Assembly (NCBI GenBank): GCA_020832235.1
Contig: JAFIEZ010000010.1
Location: 186,001-250,000, forward strand
Source: Bacteroidota bacterium
GTDB taxonomy: Bacteria; Bacteroidota; Rhodothermia; Balneolales; HLUCCA01
Reading direction: 5' to 3'
Length of the DNA: 64,000 nt
The notes under the pieces are model-generated. The model was given only the letters and a program-made list of their open reading frames with translations, was not told where the DNA came from and searched no databases. The translations under genes and the position numbers were made by a program. Positions 56,075 to 64,000 of the stretch are shown here, in pieces. Each line of letters opens with the position of its first letter. The first letter of the stretch is position 1.

Positions 56075-56569
56075 ATGAAAACCCGAATCACTCAAATAAT
56101 AAAAGTCATGGCCACTTTAGCAGTCTTTTCAACACTTACCGCCGACATTCTTGCACAAGGATCATCCGTAGCTTCCATGACCATCCGTGCAACTGTGGTG
56201 GAATCAGCTTCTATTCAAGCTGTAAATGATCTTCGATTTACCGAAACATCATTCAACGACAACCAATTTATTTCGCAAACAGACGGGTTCGCTGAATTTG
56301 TTATTACCGGAACCAGAGATGCTGAAATCAGTGTAACTGTAAGCAGTCAGTCAATGTTGTCTGAGGAAGCAAGCAGTGTCGTATTTACGCCTTCATTGGT
56401 ATCTGGCAACGGATTGCTTTCCCAGCATCAAACAATCCAGCTGAAATCCGACTCTCAAAGCGGACAGTCCAGAGCATCTGTCTGGGTAGAAGGAAAAATT
56501 GAAAGTCCTACACAAGCCGAAGCAAATGAGTATATAGGACAATACCTGATTGACGCTGTGTATAACTAA
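56075..56569 (+). CDS. Small secreted DUF4402-like (pilin/spore-coat-U-like) protein
   Basis: A 164-residue secreted protein. The signal peptide ends near TADILAQ. The mature part is all-beta in appearance, Ser/Thr-rich and without cysteine: SMTIRATVVESASIQAVNDLRF, ITGTRDAEISVTVSS, VWVEGKIESPTQAEAN and the ending GQYLIDAVYN, which resemble DUF4402 and fimbrial/SCPU-type domains. It may be a surface or pilin-like subunit. It has its own strong promoter with an abutting dyad, a good ribosome site and a clean terminator, suggesting a highly expressed monocistronic gene. It precedes two larger surface proteins. The family call is by resemblance. Confidence 0.72.
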   Translation: MKTRITQIIKVMATLAVFSTLTADILAQGSSVASMTIRATVVESASIQAVNDLRFTETSFNDNQFISQTDGFAEFVITGTRDAEISVTVSSQSMLSEEASSVVFTPSLVSGNGLLSQHQTIQLKSDSQSGQSRASVWVEGKIESPTQAEANEYIGQYLIDAVYN

Positions 56570-56689
56570 ACGTCCTGAATAGTAACCAATAACAATCTAT
56601 TAGATGATGATCACGGCATCATAGGCTCTATTGCAGCTGGCCAAACTACCCAGCATATACACAAACAAATTTAAAGTGGTTCATTCTCT

Positions 56690-56724
56690 AACGCCGGGCT
56701 GTTGAAAGCGGTCCGGCGTTTTTT
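56690..56724 (+). terminator. Intrinsic terminator of DUF4402-like gene
   Basis: AACGCCGG (56690-56697) and CCGGCGTT (56713-56720) form a perfect 8-bp GC-rich stem with a 15-base loop, followed by TTTT. It lies 120 bases after the stop codon and isolates this gene from the next. Confidence 0.88.
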
Positions 56725-56844
56725 GTGGATTAGATTACAGGAATATTAAAAAAGTTTAATCTCCTTTGTGTCTCAAAGATATTCAATAGGAGCTAGTATC
56801 CGTTCTATGAGAGTTATTTAACTCATTTTGTAGTGTCTATTGTG

Positions 56845-56860
56845 TATAATGTATGCATAC
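56845..56860 (+). promoter_or_regulatory. Candidate -10 box with palindrome before the second surface gene
   Basis: TATAAT (56845-56850) runs directly into the 10-bp perfect palindrome GTATGCATAC (56851-56860). A -35 is not obvious. A start at about 56857 would leave ~44 bases before the predicted N-terminus at 56901, which agrees better with that start than with the GTG at 57069. It is preceded by 120 bases of AT-rich sequence after the terminator in which I see nothing else. Confidence 0.4.
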
Positions 56861-56900
56861 TGTAATCATTATAAGTTTTCTTATCCGATTTTAATCAAAA

Positions 56901-57788
56901 ATATCGATTCTCTCGGTTTTAATTCTCGCCATTTTATGGCCGCAGGTAGTTTATGCACAGGCGAATTTAACAATATCAGGTAATTATTCAACGCCTGGCG
57001 ACACGCTCCAGGTTGGTACGCTCAGTATCGCCAACGGTACCAACTCATTCAACGGATCAACCCTTGTTGTGAATAACGACTTTAGTATGACAGGAAACCG
57101 TACCCTGAACTGTAATAGTGGTACAATGATCTTTGAAGGAAACTTCCAGGTTGGTGGAAGTGCGACATTTAATATGGGGGGTTGTACGATAAAATTCAAT
57201 GGAAACTTGGCTCGATTCGGTAATGCAAATTCGTTCGACCCTGGTACAAGTACGGTGATTTTTGGTGGAAACACTGAAATCGAATGGAATTCGGGAAGCG
57301 ATATTCAATTCTATAACGTCATTGTGGAGGATGGTGCTTCTGTAACTGCAGATGTTGATGTTTTTGTGTTAAATGACATGACTGTTGAGGGTGACGGATC
57401 ATATTCAAATATTAATAACACTTCACTTAATGTTGTAGGGCAGGTAACAGGAGACCCTCAAATATTTGGTGTCGCACCTTTTATTACAAATATTTCTATT
57501 CTGAATAGCAATTCAATTGAGGTTTTTTTTAGTAGGAAGTTAAACCAAGGTCCTGCCGAAAATATTGGCAATTACAAGGTAAGGTCAACACTAGCCGGGG
57601 CTTTTACAGATCCGGGAGTTGTAGATCCATCCCCATCCATAACTTCAGCCGTCTGGAATCCGACCGACTCTAACAGAGTTGTGCTAAGTCTTGGATTTAC
57701 TATAGTTGCAGATACCAATTACTATCTGTGGATACAGAATGTCACCATCGAGGACAGTTTTACCCAAAAAATTACGGTAATTAAATAG
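56901..57788 (+). CDS. Secreted surface protein, start codon unresolved
   Basis: A ~295-residue protein whose first ordinary start is the GTG at 57069. However, the same frame stays open upstream to a stop at 56892 and encodes a good signal peptide there (KISILSVLILAILWPQVVYAQ). No ATG, GTG or TTG occurs in this part; the candidates are ATA (56901) or ATT (56907). The mature part has beta-helix-like repeats (FEGNFQVGGSATFNM, IFGGNTEIEWNSG), then VIVEDGASVTADVDVFVLND and an Ig-like end (YYLWIQNVTIED). It aligns by eye with residues ~310-498 of the next protein. Either a rare start codon or a start-codon mutation. Confidence 0.7.
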   Translation: MSILSVLILAILWPQVVYAQANLTISGNYSTPGDTLQVGTLSIANGTNSFNGSTLVVNNDFSMTGNRTLNCNSGTMIFEGNFQVGGSATFNMGGCTIKFNGNLARFGNANSFDPGTSTVIFGGNTEIEWNSGSDIQFYNVIVEDGASVTADVDVFVLNDMTVEGDGSYSNINNTSLNVVGQVTGDPQIFGVAPFITNISILNSNSIEVFFSRKLNQGPAENIGNYKVRSTLAGAFTDPGVVDPSPSITSAVWNPTDSNRVVLSLGFTIVADTNYYLWIQNVTIEDSFTQKITVIK

Positions 57789-57916: not shown

Positions 57917-60900
57917 ATGCAACATCGACCTGTTCTACATACAACCCTTCTGAAGCTAGCTTCGGTTTTGTTCCTGCTTATGCTCTCGCAGGTGGGATTG
58001 TTATATGGCCAAACTACTACGTGGAACGGAAGCGCCAGCTCCGACTGGTTTAATCCATCAAATTGGAGCGACGGCGTACCAGGCCCTGCCACCACAGCCC
58101 AGATTAATTCCATACCCGCCGCTAATAGTCAGCCCCTGCTCTCATCAAGCACCACAATTGGTGGCCTAAGTATGGGGTCGAATAACCAATCGCTGACCTT
58201 AGGTCCTGACATCACGCTCACTATTGCCGGGAACCTCACTACCGGCAACTCGGCCATGTTAAGCGGGACCGACGTTACGTTACATGTTGGCGGGAACATG
58301 ACCCTCGGCAATGATGTAAACATTGCCACATCTGCTAATCCAGGTTCTTTATCCGTGGGTGGCAATCTATCCGTGGCAAACGGAAAAACATTTAACGCAG
58401 ATTTTGAATCCATTACGATTGACGGAACACTCACCCTCAACGGACAGATTAACTTGTTTTCTGCCGATCTGGAAACCGAAACTATTACGATCAATAACAA
58501 TGGTGTTCTGAACATTCAAAACGGCAGTGTCACCGTGAATAACACCTCATCAAACAGCGGCAATATTCTGGTTGGTGACGGAGTGTTCACCATTTTGGGG
58601 AACTTCACTCACACGGCAAGCGGGTATCTTGAGGTGCAAACGGGTACTGTGAACGTCGGTCACCCGGGGCCTCCCGCGGTTAGCGGCAACTTTGTTCAGG
58701 ATGGAGGGTCTGAATTCATACTCAATCAAGGATCGTTCAATGTGTTTGGGAATTCCACCTTTTCCGGGGGAGGAGACTTTTTTGCCAACGAAGGTTCTAT
58801 TCTTTTCGAAGGTAACGTCGCCTTCAACGGTGGGAGTGATTTCGATGCGGGAACCAGTACGGTTACTCTGAGCGGTGATGTTACACTATCCACAAACTCT
58901 AATCAGAGCGCCACCTTTTTCAACTTAATAGTTGACGATGGAACAAATGTGACAGCGAATATCAATGTCACCGTTCAAAATAACATGACGGTTGATCCTA
59001 CCGGTAACTACAACCATGTAAATCAAACTACCCTCAACGTATTTGGTCAGGTCATTGGTGAGCCCGAAATCAATGTCAACAGACCGTACGTGGTAGCCTT
59101 AGAGGTCGTCAGTAGCACCCGACTGCGCATCTTTTTCAATACCGAATTTGATGGAAACCCGATTAGTCTGATACCCGGTACAGGTACCAACGCCGCCGAA
59201 CGACTTACCAATTATGAAGTGGTTGAAAATGGTGCAGAGCCAGCCACAGCGATATTGGTATCGCCAAACATCGTTGAAATCGAATTCAATTCTGCAACAT
59301 TTACCATACAAGATAATACGCAGTACACCCTATGGATTAAAAACCTCCGTATTCAGGAGAATAACACAACCAGCGGGCAAATTAGTGCGAATCACTTTAA
59401 GTTTTTTGGTGGCACAAGCTTCACCGTGCCTCAACCCCTAAGTCTGGACTACTACCCCGGCGGGCTCGATAATACCAACCTGCAGCTTTGGTTTGATGTT
59501 GCCGATGCTGCTACACGTTTCTCAAATCCCTCGGGAACCGCACTGGCAACCAATGGTCAGCGCATAGCCCGTCTCAACGACAAGTCCCCGGCTGGTCGTC
59601 ATTCCATTCAGTCGACCACCAACCTGCGACCAGAGCTGGATCTCACCGGAGCATTCGGAGGCCAACCTTCTCTGATTTTTAACAACGCCGAGTTTCTGCC
59701 CTTCGATGGAAGTTTCCTTGCAGGAACCGAATACACCCTTGGCTTTTTTGTCGACCGTGCTAGCACAAGCAGCCGAAATATCTATCTCGGCGGCACCGGC
59801 ACCGGACAAAACAGCAATCTCCACCTATTCTGGAGCACAACAAATCAGCTTGAGTTCCACCAATGGGACAATAACTTCGGTTTTCCGGTTCCCGCTTTCA
59901 CCGGGTCGCTCGAGGGTGAAATACACACCTTCGATCTGAATACATCTCTGTCAAACAATGCTCGTAGCATGTGGCGAAACGGGGCACTGCTTGGCAGCGG
60001 GGGGTCCAACGCCACCTTGGTGTCCTATAACGGGGCTGCACTGGGCGCCTATCAGAACAACGAGTTTTTCAGCGGTCGTATCGGCGAGGTCTACATGTTC
60101 AATCGTCGACTCAACAACACCGAGCGCATCATTCTGGAGAACTATACCGCGGCCAAATGGGGAACACTTCTGGCCACGGCGTCTCGGTATTTCACCGCAC
60201 CGACCGGATATGGACATCAACTGGTAGGTATTGGTCGTACTTCATCCACCGACTTGGTTGGTCAAACCGCATTTACATCCGGTGGACTCGGGCTGCAGGC
60301 GTTAACAACGGAGTTTCTGAATACCGACGGGAACTACCTGCTCGCAGCGCACAACAACGCAACGGGACTCAACGCCACCACGATCTTTACCACGACAGCA
60401 CTGTACGAACGCCCAAATAGAGTTTGGTATGCCGACATCACCAAAATCGCGTCGAACGGTCAGCTCACCGTCTCATTTGATCTGGACATCCTTAATGTAA
60501 CGCCCACTACATCTACCGGCCAATACGCACTGCTATTTAACGCCAACGACGATGATTTCAGCGTATTTGAAAACAACAACGTACTCTCATCCAGTGCTTC
60601 GGTTGTCGGCAATGTCGTGAGCTTCACCATTGACGCCGATCAGCTCAGCGACGGATACCTCACCCTCGGATTCTTCATCACGCCGGCCTCTGCCGATCCC
60701 GATGAAACCACCATTACAGCACAGCCAACTGTTATAGAAGCCGATGGTGCATCCACATCGGTAATTACCGTTCAGGCACGCTTTCAGAACGGTGTGGCGC
60801 TTTCCGTCGGAGGCGATACGGTAACCCTTACAAGCACGGCCGGAACCCTGGGAGCTGTGAACGATAATGGCGATGGAACCTACACCGCCGTACTGACTTC

Positions 60901-63900
60901 GGCCAACACAACCTCCACCGCTACCGTAACCGGCACAATCAACGGAGATCCGATTAGTGATCAGGCAACCATTATTTTCTCGGCCGGCGCGCCAGCTCCC
61001 GAAGAAACGCTCATTACCGCCGCCGACGCGCAACTTGCAGCCAATGGCAGCGATCAAACCACCATCACAGTACAGCTGCGCGATAATCTGGGCGCTAACC
61101 TCACCACCGGCGGCGCCAACGTGGTACTATCCACCACCAGCGGAACACTCAGCGCCGTAACCGACAACAACGACGGGACCTACACGGCCACGCTCACTTC
61201 TTCCACAACCATTGCAACCGCGACGATTTCGGCCACCGTGAATGGGAGTCCGGCCACGGCCACGGCTCAGGTGCAGTTCACGGCCGGGCCCATTGACCTC
61301 GCTACCTCCACCATAGGAGCAAGTCCCTCGCAGATTACCGCCAATGGAACATCCCAAAGCTTAATTGTACTCGAACTGCGCGACGCCAATGGAAATCTCG
61401 TAGGCACAGGCGGCGCAACGGTTGTACTCTCTACCACCGCCGGAAGTCTTTCCTCCGTGAATGACCTGGGCAACGGTTTGTACAACGCTACCTTAACCTC
61501 GGCCACTACACCCGGAACCGCCACCATCTCCGCAACGGTAAACGGCAATCCCGTTGCCGCAACCACTCAGGTCGAATTTGTTGATTTCGACATCCTTCGG
61601 TACTATCCCGGCGGACTGGCCAACGGCAACCTCCAGATTTGGTTCGATGCAGCCGATGATGCCTATATTTTCAGCGACGTTGCCGGAACAACACCTGCAG
61701 GCTTCGGCGACCCTGTGGCCTTGCTGCGCGATAAATCGCCCAATGCCCGTCACGCCGAGCAACCCGTTACGGCCAGCCGACCTATTCGCAGCAACACAGG
61801 AGCCTTCGGAGATCGACCTTCTCTGGTCTTCAACAACGCCGAGTTCCTGCCCTTCGACGGTACCTTCCTGGCCGGCACCGACTACACCCTCACCTTTATG
61901 GTCGACCGCTCCTTCGGTGGCTCCGGCCGAAATATGATTTTTGGAGGGACTACCACCTCAGCCAGTGAAAACCTCCACCTATTCTGGAATGGCAGCACGA
62001 CCCTGGAACACCACCATTGGGGCAACAACTACACGATGACCGTCCCGGCCTACACCGGCAGTTTAACTGGGGAAATTCTCACCGTCAATTTAAATACCGC
62101 CATTACAGCGCCCTTCCGCAGAACCTGGCGAAACGGAACCCAGATTGGTTCAGGCGGCACAAATGCCCAGCTCACATCCATGAATGGAGCCGCCATCGGA
62201 CGCTTCCAGACCAGCACCTTCCTTCGTGGACGCATTGGAGAGGTCATCATGCACGACAGGGCGCTGAATACCACCGAGTTTATCATACTCCAGAACTACA
62301 TTTCAGCGCGATGGGGTGTAGGCATTGATGCTACCATCGATTTCTATACCTCCCCGGATGCGGACTTCTTCCACCAACTGGTCGGGATAGGCAGAACCAC
62401 CCCCTCCGATAATGTCATGCAAACGGCATTCACCTCTGGCGGACTCGCCTTCAACTCCAACGGGTTCAGCTTCCTAACGGCGAGTCAGCGCTACCTCATG
62501 GCGGCCCATAATAACCTCACAGGACTCTCATCCGGTCCGGTAGTCGTGGGCGAATCGACCTTCGAGCGATGGGAACGAGCCTGGTACCTTGAAAAAACAG
62601 CCACTACCAGCGGGGGAGAAGTAGCCCTGGAGTTCGACTTCTTCGACTATGACCTTCCCTTACCCCAGCAAGATGAAACCTTTGCACTGATTTTTCATCC
62701 CAATAATCCGTCCTTTGCCTCTGCCGGCGTGCAGACCATCGCGGCAACGGTGAGCTTCCCATCGGTAAGTCGGGTTCGCTTTGTGGTGGATGCCGACGAT
62801 CTTACCAACGGCTTTTATACCCTGGGCAGACGCACCGGAACGGTAACGTATTTCAGCAGAACTTCGGGTGACTTCAACGATGCTGAAACCTGGTCGGTCA
62901 CCGGTCATGACGGTCCGGCACACAGCGCCGCTCCCGGTCCCAACAGCACCGTAATTATTGGCGGGGATGCCGGCAGTGACCACACCGTTACCCTTACGGC
63001 CAATTTCGCCACCCAGTCGGACGGGAACATCACCGTAACCGACACCGGCGACGGAGCGGGGATACTGCTCACCGGCACCCATCTGCTCACCGGAAGCGGC
63101 ACCTTCACCCTGGATGATGGCGGTGCATTGGGCATCGGCTCACCCGACGGCATTACCACCTCAGCGGCCAGTGGCAACATCCGCACCACCACCCGCAGTT
63201 TCAGCGCCGACGCCATCTATATCTATAACGGAAACAGCGCCCAGAATACCGGCAGCGGACTCCCCGGTGAAATCCGAGAGTTGCGCGTGAACAACGCCTC
63301 GGGCGTAACCCTTACCAACAACCTGCGCGTAACCTCCGAAACCCTGCTGGAGGCAGGCAATCTGACCGTCGGTTCCGACCGGGCCTTCGTATCCGAAACC
63401 ATCCAATACAACGGCGGACTCCTTCGCGCGCTGCGCCAGCTTTGGGTGCCGCCAACCGACACACCCGGCGGATGGCGACTGTTTTCCTCGCCCATCGATA
63501 CCGACTACGCCAATTTGTTCTCCGAACTGCTCACCCAGGGCTTCCCCGGCAGCGATTTAGGGGTATCATCCAGCCTGATTCCGAATGTACTTTGGTACGA
63601 AGAATCGTTTGAAGGCACCGACAATCAGCGCTGGAGAGCACCAACAAGCGCCTCTCAAAGCCTGGAACCCGGTCGCGGTATCTTCGCGTACGTCTTTGGC
63701 GACATCTCCACCGACAGCCGGTATGGTCAGCAGGCCGTTACTCTGGAAGTCATCGGACAGGAAAACGCCGGCGACATTAGTCTCCCCGTTACCTATACGC
63801 CCGAGGGAGACCAGGGATGGAATCTGGTAGGCAATCCGTTTTTATCGACCATTTTCTGGAATGATCCCGACGGATGGAACAAAGCCAACATCGGCAACTC

Positions 63901-64000
63901 CATCTACGTATGGGACCAGCAGTCGAACGGCGGGAATGGCGCTTTTCTGGAATGGAATGGTGTGACCGGATGGGGGAATGGTTACATCAAACCGTTTCAG
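57917..64000 (+). CDS. Giant multidomain surface protein, runs off the right edge
   Basis: An uninterrupted frame of 2,028 codons from the ATG at 57917 to the window end, without a stop; the gene is therefore partial. Order: signal peptide (1-32); TWN...NPSNWSDGVP entry; beta-helix-like repeats (to ~330); block shared with the upstream protein (~310-498) ending in an Ig-like fold; LamG/lectin-like module (512-921); three invasin-type Ig repeats (930-1221) with DGTY motifs; second lectin-like module (1229-1639); a second beta-helix start (TSGDFNDAETWS, ~1650) to ~1830; then GWRLFSSPID and GWNLVGNPFLS stretches. Such endings usually precede a type IX sorting domain in Bacteroidota, which would lie outside. 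Probably an adhesin or matrix protein; inferred. Confidence 0.9.
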   Translation, partial: MQHRPVLHTTLLKLASVLFLLMLSQVGLLYGQTTTWNGSASSDWFNPSNWSDGVPGPATTAQINSIPAANSQPLLSSSTTIGGLSMGSNNQSLTLGPDITLTIAGNLTTGNSAMLSGTDVTLHVGGNMTLGNDVNIATSANPGSLSVGGNLSVANGKTFNADFESITIDGTLTLNGQINLFSADLETETITINNNGVLNIQNGSVTVNNTSSNSGNILVGDGVFTILGNFTHTASGYLEVQTGTVNVGHPGPPAVSGNFVQDGGSEFILNQGSFNVFGNSTFSGGGDFFANEGSILFEGNVAFNGGSDFDAGTSTVTLSGDVTLSTNSNQSATFFNLIVDDGTNVTANINVTVQNNMTVDPTGNYNHVNQTTLNVFGQVIGEPEINVNRPYVVALEVVSSTRLRIFFNTEFDGNPISLIPGTGTNAAERLTNYEVVENGAEPATAILVSPNIVEIEFNSATFTIQDNTQYTLWIKNLRIQENNTTSGQISANHFKFFGGTSFTVPQPLSLDYYPGGLDNTNLQLWFDVADAATRFSNPSGTALATNGQRIARLNDKSPAGRHSIQSTTNLRPELDLTGAFGGQPSLIFNNAEFLPFDGSFLAGTEYTLGFFVDRASTSSRNIYLGGTGTGQNSNLHLFWSTTNQLEFHQWDNNFGFPVPAFTGSLEGEIHTFDLNTSLSNNARSMWRNGALLGSGGSNATLVSYNGAALGAYQNNEFFSGRIGEVYMFNRRLNNTERIILENYTAAKWGTLLATASRYFTAPTGYGHQLVGIGRTSSTDLVGQTAFTSGGLGLQALTTEFLNTDGNYLLAAHNNATGLNATTIFTTTALYERPNRVWYADITKIASNGQLTVSFDLDILNVTPTTSTGQYALLFNANDDDFSVFENNNVLSSSASVVGNVVSFTIDADQLSDGYLTLGFFITPASADPDETTITAQPTVIEADGASTSVITVQARFQNGVALSVGGDTVTLTSTAGTLGAVNDNGDGTYTAVLTSANTTSTATVTGTINGDPISDQATIIFSAGAPAPEETLITAADAQLAANGSDQTTITVQLRDNLGANLTTGGANVVLSTTSGTLSAVTDNNDGTYTATLTSSTTIATATISATVNGSPATATAQVQFTAGPIDLATSTIGASPSQITANGTSQSLIVLELRDANGNLVGTGGATVVLSTTAGSLSSVNDLGNGLYNATLTSATTPGTATISATVNGNPVAATTQVEFVDFDILRYYPGGLANGNLQIWFDAADDAYIFSDVAGTTPAGFGDPVALLRDKSPNARHAEQPVTASRPIRSNTGAFGDRPSLVFNNAEFLPFDGTFLAGTDYTLTFMVDRSFGGSGRNMIFGGTTTSASENLHLFWNGSTTLEHHHWGNNYTMTVPAYTGSLTGEILTVNLNTAITAPFRRTWRNGTQIGSGGTNAQLTSMNGAAIGRFQTSTFLRGRIGEVIMHDRALNTTEFIILQNYISARWGVGIDATIDFYTSPDADFFHQLVGIGRTTPSDNVMQTAFTSGGLAFNSNGFSFLTASQRYLMAAHNNLTGLSSGPVVVGESTFERWERAWYLEKTATTSGGEVALEFDFFDYDLPLPQQDETFALIFHPNNPSFASAGVQTIAATVSFPSVSRVRFVVDADDLTNGFYTLGRRTGTVTYFSRTSGDFNDAETWSVTGHDGPAHSAAPGPNSTVIIGGDAGSDHTVTLTANFATQSDGNITVTDTGDGAGILLTGTHLLTGSGTFTLDDGGALGIGSPDGITTSAASGNIRTTTRSFSADAIYIYNGNSAQNTGSGLPGEIRELRVNNASGVTLTNNLRVTSETLLEAGNLTVGSDRAFVSETIQYNGGLLRALRQLWVPPTDTPGGWRLFSSPIDTDYANLFSELLTQGFPGSDLGVSSSLIPNVLWYEESFEGTDNQRWRAPTSASQSLEPGRGIFAYVFGDISTDSRYGQQAVTLEVIGQENAGDISLPVTYTPEGDQGWNLVGNPFLSTIFWNDPDGWNKANIGNSIYVWDQQSNGGNGAFLEWNGVTGWGNGYIKPFQ
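59450..60679 (+). repeat. Lectin-like module, copy 1 (residues 512-921)
   Basis: Starts YYPGGLDNTNLQLWFD and continues with DKSPAGRHS, QPSLIFNNAEFLPFDGSF, FSGRIGEVYMFNRRLNNTER, HQLVGIGRTSSTD, QTAFTSGGL, ending SDGYLTLGFFI. The central ~200 residues look like a LamG/concanavalin-type fold (RIGEV, MFNRRLNNTE). Copy 2 at 61601-62833 repeats every one of these landmarks in the same order and is one residue longer, so it is a true internal duplication. Confidence 0.85.
60704..61579 (+). repeat. Three tandem invasin-type Ig repeats
   Basis: Repeats begin at about 60704, 61004 and 61295 (periods of 300 and 291 bases). Each has the same landmarks: ITA..., a strand with TVQ/VLEL, STAG/STTSG/STTAG, then DNGDGTYTA, DNNDGTYTA or DLGNGLYNA, and ATISATVNG-type endings. 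This is the bacterial Ig-like (Big_1/invasin) pattern. They sit between the two lectin-like modules as a rigid spacer would. Confidence 0.85.
61601..62833 (+). repeat. Lectin-like module, copy 2 (residues 1229-1639)
   Basis: Second copy of the ~410-residue module: YYPGGLANGNLQIWFDAADD, DKSPNARHA, RPSLVFNNAEFLPFDGTF, LRGRIGEVIMHDRALNTTEF, HQLVGIGRTTPSD, QTAFTSGGL and the ending NGFYTLGRR. Both copies share DNA-level similarity in the FNNAEFLPFDG segment, where 61831-61860 and 59682-59711 are nearly identical by eye. Confidence 0.85.

Follow-up and report, generated by a model that had tools for sequence, protein, structure and literature searches.

The reading frame at 56895-57788 of the window (the whole 64,000-nucleotide stretch of DNA analysed here) appears to be an internally deleted and recently silenced remnant of the gene for a large T9SS-secreted surface protein, a reading to which we assign a probability of roughly two in three. 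The frame, which lies on the plus strand like all features of the window described below, is most likely a pseudogene of the ordinary kind, and not one that uses an exotic start signal: given the gutted body of the gene, from which ~700 codons and nearly the whole sorting domain are missing, decay is likelier than a clever start. The sequence-only reading, which had considered that the export signal might be lost and the gene silenced, pointed in the right direction but missed the loss of these codons and of the sorting domain. In the scenario that we propose, an ancestral gene at this conserved position would have encoded a signal peptide, long beta-helix repeats, an Ig-like domain, a beta-rich region and a sorting domain. 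A ~2.1-kb deletion would have fused the Ig-like domain, in frame, with the final 13 codons of the sorting domain, the region just behind the signal would have been lost as well, and so would a usable initiator before the signal codons. Judged from the sequence, translation would fail and no functional product would be made.

Conserved gene order around the focal frame

The window was compared with two congeners, HLUCCA01 (LIHN01000018) and PBR18_bin42 (JAIUMT010000320), both Balneolales of the same genus. Upstream of the focal frame lies an intact gene for a DUF4402-type secreted protein of 164 aa (56075-56569; PF14352, E 4.9e-4, below the curated cut-off), which shares 65% identity with its counterpart in this position of HLUCCA01 and 48% with that of PBR18_bin42. 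Downstream, an intact gene for a T9SS type A protein of 2338 aa with invasin-type Ig domains (57917-64000) extends beyond the window end; its product is 70% identical to the HLUCCA01 counterpart. The order found in the window (164 aa, 297-codon frame, 2338 aa) is the same as that of HLUCCA01, where a DUF4402 gene, a 1413-aa gene and a 2349-aa gene follow one another, and in PBR18_bin42 the slot holds a long copy of at least 824 aa, the frame being cut by the contig end. The best protein-search matches of the focal frame sit in this same slot: they are the 1413-codon frame of HLUCCA01 and the 824-codon frame of PBR18_bin42, with identities over the Ig-like core of 51% and 46.5%, respectively.

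Wider searches were also carried out. A scan of genome contigs with the focal frame found no relatives, and a contig scan with the DUF4402 alignment returned HLUCCA01, PBR18_bin42 and UBA11400, none of which belongs to the same species. A 1.1-kb DNA search of 60 relatives revealed no second copy of the gene, giving only the terminator piece in HLUCCA01 and a 28-base match in one further relative.

Two observations concern the surroundings of the frame. In the 2338-aa T9SS protein (57917-64000), three Ig stretches are of the invasin D3 type. Beyond the downstream end of the window, genes conserved in HLUCCA01 (L030:11131-14565) encode a series of small secreted proteins and a 274-aa exported protein. 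Three of the small proteins match DUF4402, in two cases below the family cut-off, and the group is possibly a surface-fibre gene set.

An in-frame scar joins the Ig-like region to the sorting-domain tail

Behind the signal, the focal frame encodes a shortened run of beta-helix repeats (57003-57452), as seen in a protein alignment of five members (the focal frame and four relatives), followed by an Ig-like region that ends in NYYLWIQNVT and is homologous to the middle of the HLUCCA01 1413-aa protein (57453-57746). The single-sequence fold model of the protein (mean pLDDT 62) contains a beta-strand ladder at residues 37-186, which would fit the beta-helix repeats; it is not reliable for the Ig-like part or for the tail. 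The N-terminal TWxG...NWS region, present in 4/4 aligned relatives, is absent from the frame. Several repeats are also gone behind the signal, amounting to ~100-300 residues (~0.3-1 kb) depending on the relative used for the comparison. Nothing is left of the stretch from NYYLWIQNVT to the last residues.

The final 13 sorting-domain residues, IEDSFTQKITVIK, and the stop (57747-57788) are fused in frame with the Ig-like region, forming a deletion scar. The tail is identical at 8 of 13 positions to the C-terminus of the HLUCCA01 orthologue, LEGSFTQKVTLIR, with a BLOSUM62 score of 46 that was reached by none of 200000 shuffles (0/200000); against 21 further sorting-domain tails from the genome its best score was 21, and against the tail of the downstream neighbour it scored 29. 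Since the joined stretches are ~720 codons apart in HLUCCA01, ~2.1 kb has been lost in frame.

The sorting domain (TIGR04183/PF18962) gives clear matches in the HLUCCA01 1413-aa protein and in the downstream neighbour. In the focal frame no match to this type A domain was found in NCBIfam or Pfam, and the frame is not among the 75 type A sorting-domain matches of the whole genome, a number which makes it probable that many T9SS proteins are secreted by this organism. Type A sorting requires conserved motifs; a review of T9SS signals reports that secretion requires the final 13 CTD residues and that for one CTD the final 22 (motifs D and E) are enough (PMC10202324). Because the focal frame retains only approximately motif E, secretion of its protein is unlikely even if it is made. 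If the frame is translated, it would provide a natural test of the minimal sufficient type A sorting domain.

The signal-peptide codons lack an initiator

The open frame comprises 297 codons, and an in-frame TAA (56892-56894) directly precedes it, at the place where an initiator would be expected. Translation from this stop onward reads SKISILSVLILAILWPQVVYAQANLTISGNYS..., the first 22 codons (56895-56960) encoding a Sec-signal-like stretch, SKISILSVLILAILWPQVVYAQ, in which TCA AAA, the codons preceding the hydrophobic core, come directly after the TAA. Signal-like codons are present here and the start codon that should accompany them is absent: the earliest ATG, GTG or TTG of the frame is the GTG at 57069. 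Both the translation and the ORF list bear out what the sequence-only reading had reported, namely a signal in frame back to the stop at 56892 and no conventional start before GTG 57069. ATA 56901 and ATT 56907, which it had named as the only initiation candidates, are both there, but "only" is slightly too strong, as ATT 56922, ATT 56931, ATA 56973 and ATC 57027 are also in frame.

Both codon usage and homology place the beginning of the coding sequence upstream of 57069. From 56895 to 57068 the codon score is +0.15 per codon in the focal frame and -0.20 to -1.16 in the other five, codon statistics favour the focal frame before as well as after 57069, and the intergenic stretch upstream, at -1.1 to -1.4 in all six frames, is non-coding. 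A run of 58 codons free of ATG, GTG and TTG inside a coding sequence is not itself rare (P ~0.13 under the codon use of the neighbour gene); the oddity is that the initiator is absent at the front of a signal peptide. With no ATG, GTG or TTG before 57069, the ORF list gives only 57069-57788 (239 aa), and gene callers would list the remnant as a 239-aa cytoplasmic protein. That such a protein is really made from GTG 57069 seems very improbable to us: this codon, residue 59 of the frame, lies within the beta-helix repeats, no SD-like sequence precedes it, and a start there leaves the signal-like codons unexplained.

The start codons of the congeners differ in kind. The PBR18_bin42 copy is without ATG, its first start being TTG AGT AAA AAA in front of the signal, and the HLUCCA01 copy has an ATG or GTG available upstream of the signal. 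The start regions of the three congeners align no better than shuffled sequence, so that a codon-by-codon comparison across them is impossible. This also deprives a start at the nearest upstream ATG (56849-56851) of support from related sequence, the region being unalignable to HLUCCA01 or PBR18_bin42 beyond the shuffled level. That ATG lies in another frame (MYAYCNHYKFSYPILIKNID...), which is open past the signal codons, and translation could begin there if the frame had been corrupted by a single sequencing or assembly error, or by a recent indel, near the A5 at 56897-56901; the genome is indeed a 20-contig draft. However, the stretch from 56849 scores -0.69 per codon and is not coding-like, MYAYCNHYKFSYPILIK does not look like a typical n-region, and an upstream start or a sequence error would leave the internal deletion unexplained. 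On balance we consider this explanation unlikely.

Alternatively, the frame could be a live mini-gene of 297 codons, started at ATA 56901 or ATT 56907 and giving a low-level exported beta-helix/Ig protein. Its frame is intact, its codon usage is coding-like and its evolution is not accelerated; moreover, NCBI includes ATA and ATT among the possible starts of table 11, and the tail retains motif E, the last 13 CTD residues being needed for T9SS secretion (PMC10202324). The rare start codon invoked by the sequence-only reading is nevertheless a weak proposal, as initiation at ATA or ATT would remove the only Lys before the hydrophobic core and leave a signal without positive charge, unlike 14/14 signal peptides inspected in the window (proteins judged by eye from its gene list), which carry Lys or Arg at this place. 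Apart from special cases such as infC, ATA and ATT are generally known to initiate very weakly. Of the sorting domain, motifs A, B and D have been lost; the search for a promoter pair gave none, and we regard a live mini-gene as improbable. More improbable still is an in-frame excision that would have converted a ~1400-residue T9SS protein into a 297-residue exported one with a transplanted motif E (NYYLWIQNVTIEDSFTQKITVIK) and a low-level ATA/ATT start.

Comparison with Rfam gave nothing above the gathering scores around the start. The RNA fold of 56840-56960 has a z of -2.4, but 6 of 200 shuffles fold equally well and we left it uninterpreted. A second copy of the start region was sought in the own genome and none was found, so there is no gene-conversion source.

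Transcription signals and switching

The TATAAT box at 56845-56850, which had been taken to fit a start near 56901, does exist; it lends no support to such a start, for it has no -35 partner and is indistinguishable from chance, the motif occurring 30 times in the window against 38.7 expected. No sigma-70-type -35/-10 pair was found near 56845-56850, and a search for TANNTTTG promoters gave numbers at chance level. After the DUF4402 gene, a conserved AAGTGGTTCATTCTCTAA and then a terminator hairpin occupy 56674-56720, with the terminator-like hairpin itself at 56690-56720. Lying between the DUF4402 unit and the focal frame, this terminator should cut off read-through transcription, and the frame would need a promoter of its own.

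The AAGTGGTTCATTCTCTAA element is 18 bp long, identical in three species of the genus and present as a single copy per genome, each time behind the DUF4402 gene, with flanks that cannot be aligned; a variant of the element and terminator follows the DUF4402 gene in one more distant genome too. Situated just before the DUF4402 terminator, the 18 bp may represent a regulatory 3' end or a small RNA.

Phase variation often targets surface protein genes, and phase-variable expression had been suggested for this one. Switching of the export signal by phase variation or a programmed frameshift is nonetheless scarcely credible here: the only nearby homopolymer is the A5, which is too short, no simple repeat tract is seen on reading the start sequence, and the gene occurs in the relatives without such an arrangement.

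Selection and age of the loss

No stops or frameshifts occur within the 297 codons, and the lineage-specific residues of the core (27 in the window, 20 in HLUCCA01 and 26 in PBR18_bin42) give no clear sign of acceleration. The loss of function, if real, would therefore be recent. Between the focal frame and HLUCCA01, pN is 0.36 and pS 0.86, a ratio which, with synonymous sites near saturation, mostly reflects the time before any silencing. The uninterrupted 297 codons, the coding-like usage, the lack of clear acceleration in the core and a pN well below pS all count against the frame being a remnant, and two in-frame joints would be somewhat lucky if the gene was already dead. What is expected of a pseudogene is found in the longer homologue at the same position in relatives and in the lesions affecting the start, the sorting domain and the body of the gene (the deletion); relaxed selection or further stops and frameshifts, which are supportive rather than strictly defining for a pseudogene, were not observed.

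A startless signal peptide can mark a recently dead, internally deleted gene. The locus also illustrates, cleanly and on a small scale, the turnover of large, repeat-rich surface proteins from one Balneolales species to another, with the neighbouring genes keeping their places.

Comparison with known systems

Among genes with unusual starts, the infC type with ATT or ATA is generally known, and the focal frame likewise has both codons in frame close to where a start is expected; it departs from this type in that its signal would lose its positive charge and its start region is unalignable to the congeners. With T9SS type A cargo (TIGR04183/PF18962) it shares a tail whose last 13 residues resemble motif E, whereas such cargo has motifs A-D and a profile match, both of which the frame lacks. 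The PBR18_bin42 copy resembles the frame in its position, in a core that is 46.5% identical and in having no ATG, but it runs to at least 824 codons and has a legal TTG start before the signal. The HLUCCA01 1413-aa T9SS type A protein is encoded, like the focal frame, between a DUF4402 gene and a large T9SS gene and, unlike it, possesses start codons, the TWxG/NWS region, a complete sorting domain and, behind the Ig-like domain, ~700 additional residues.
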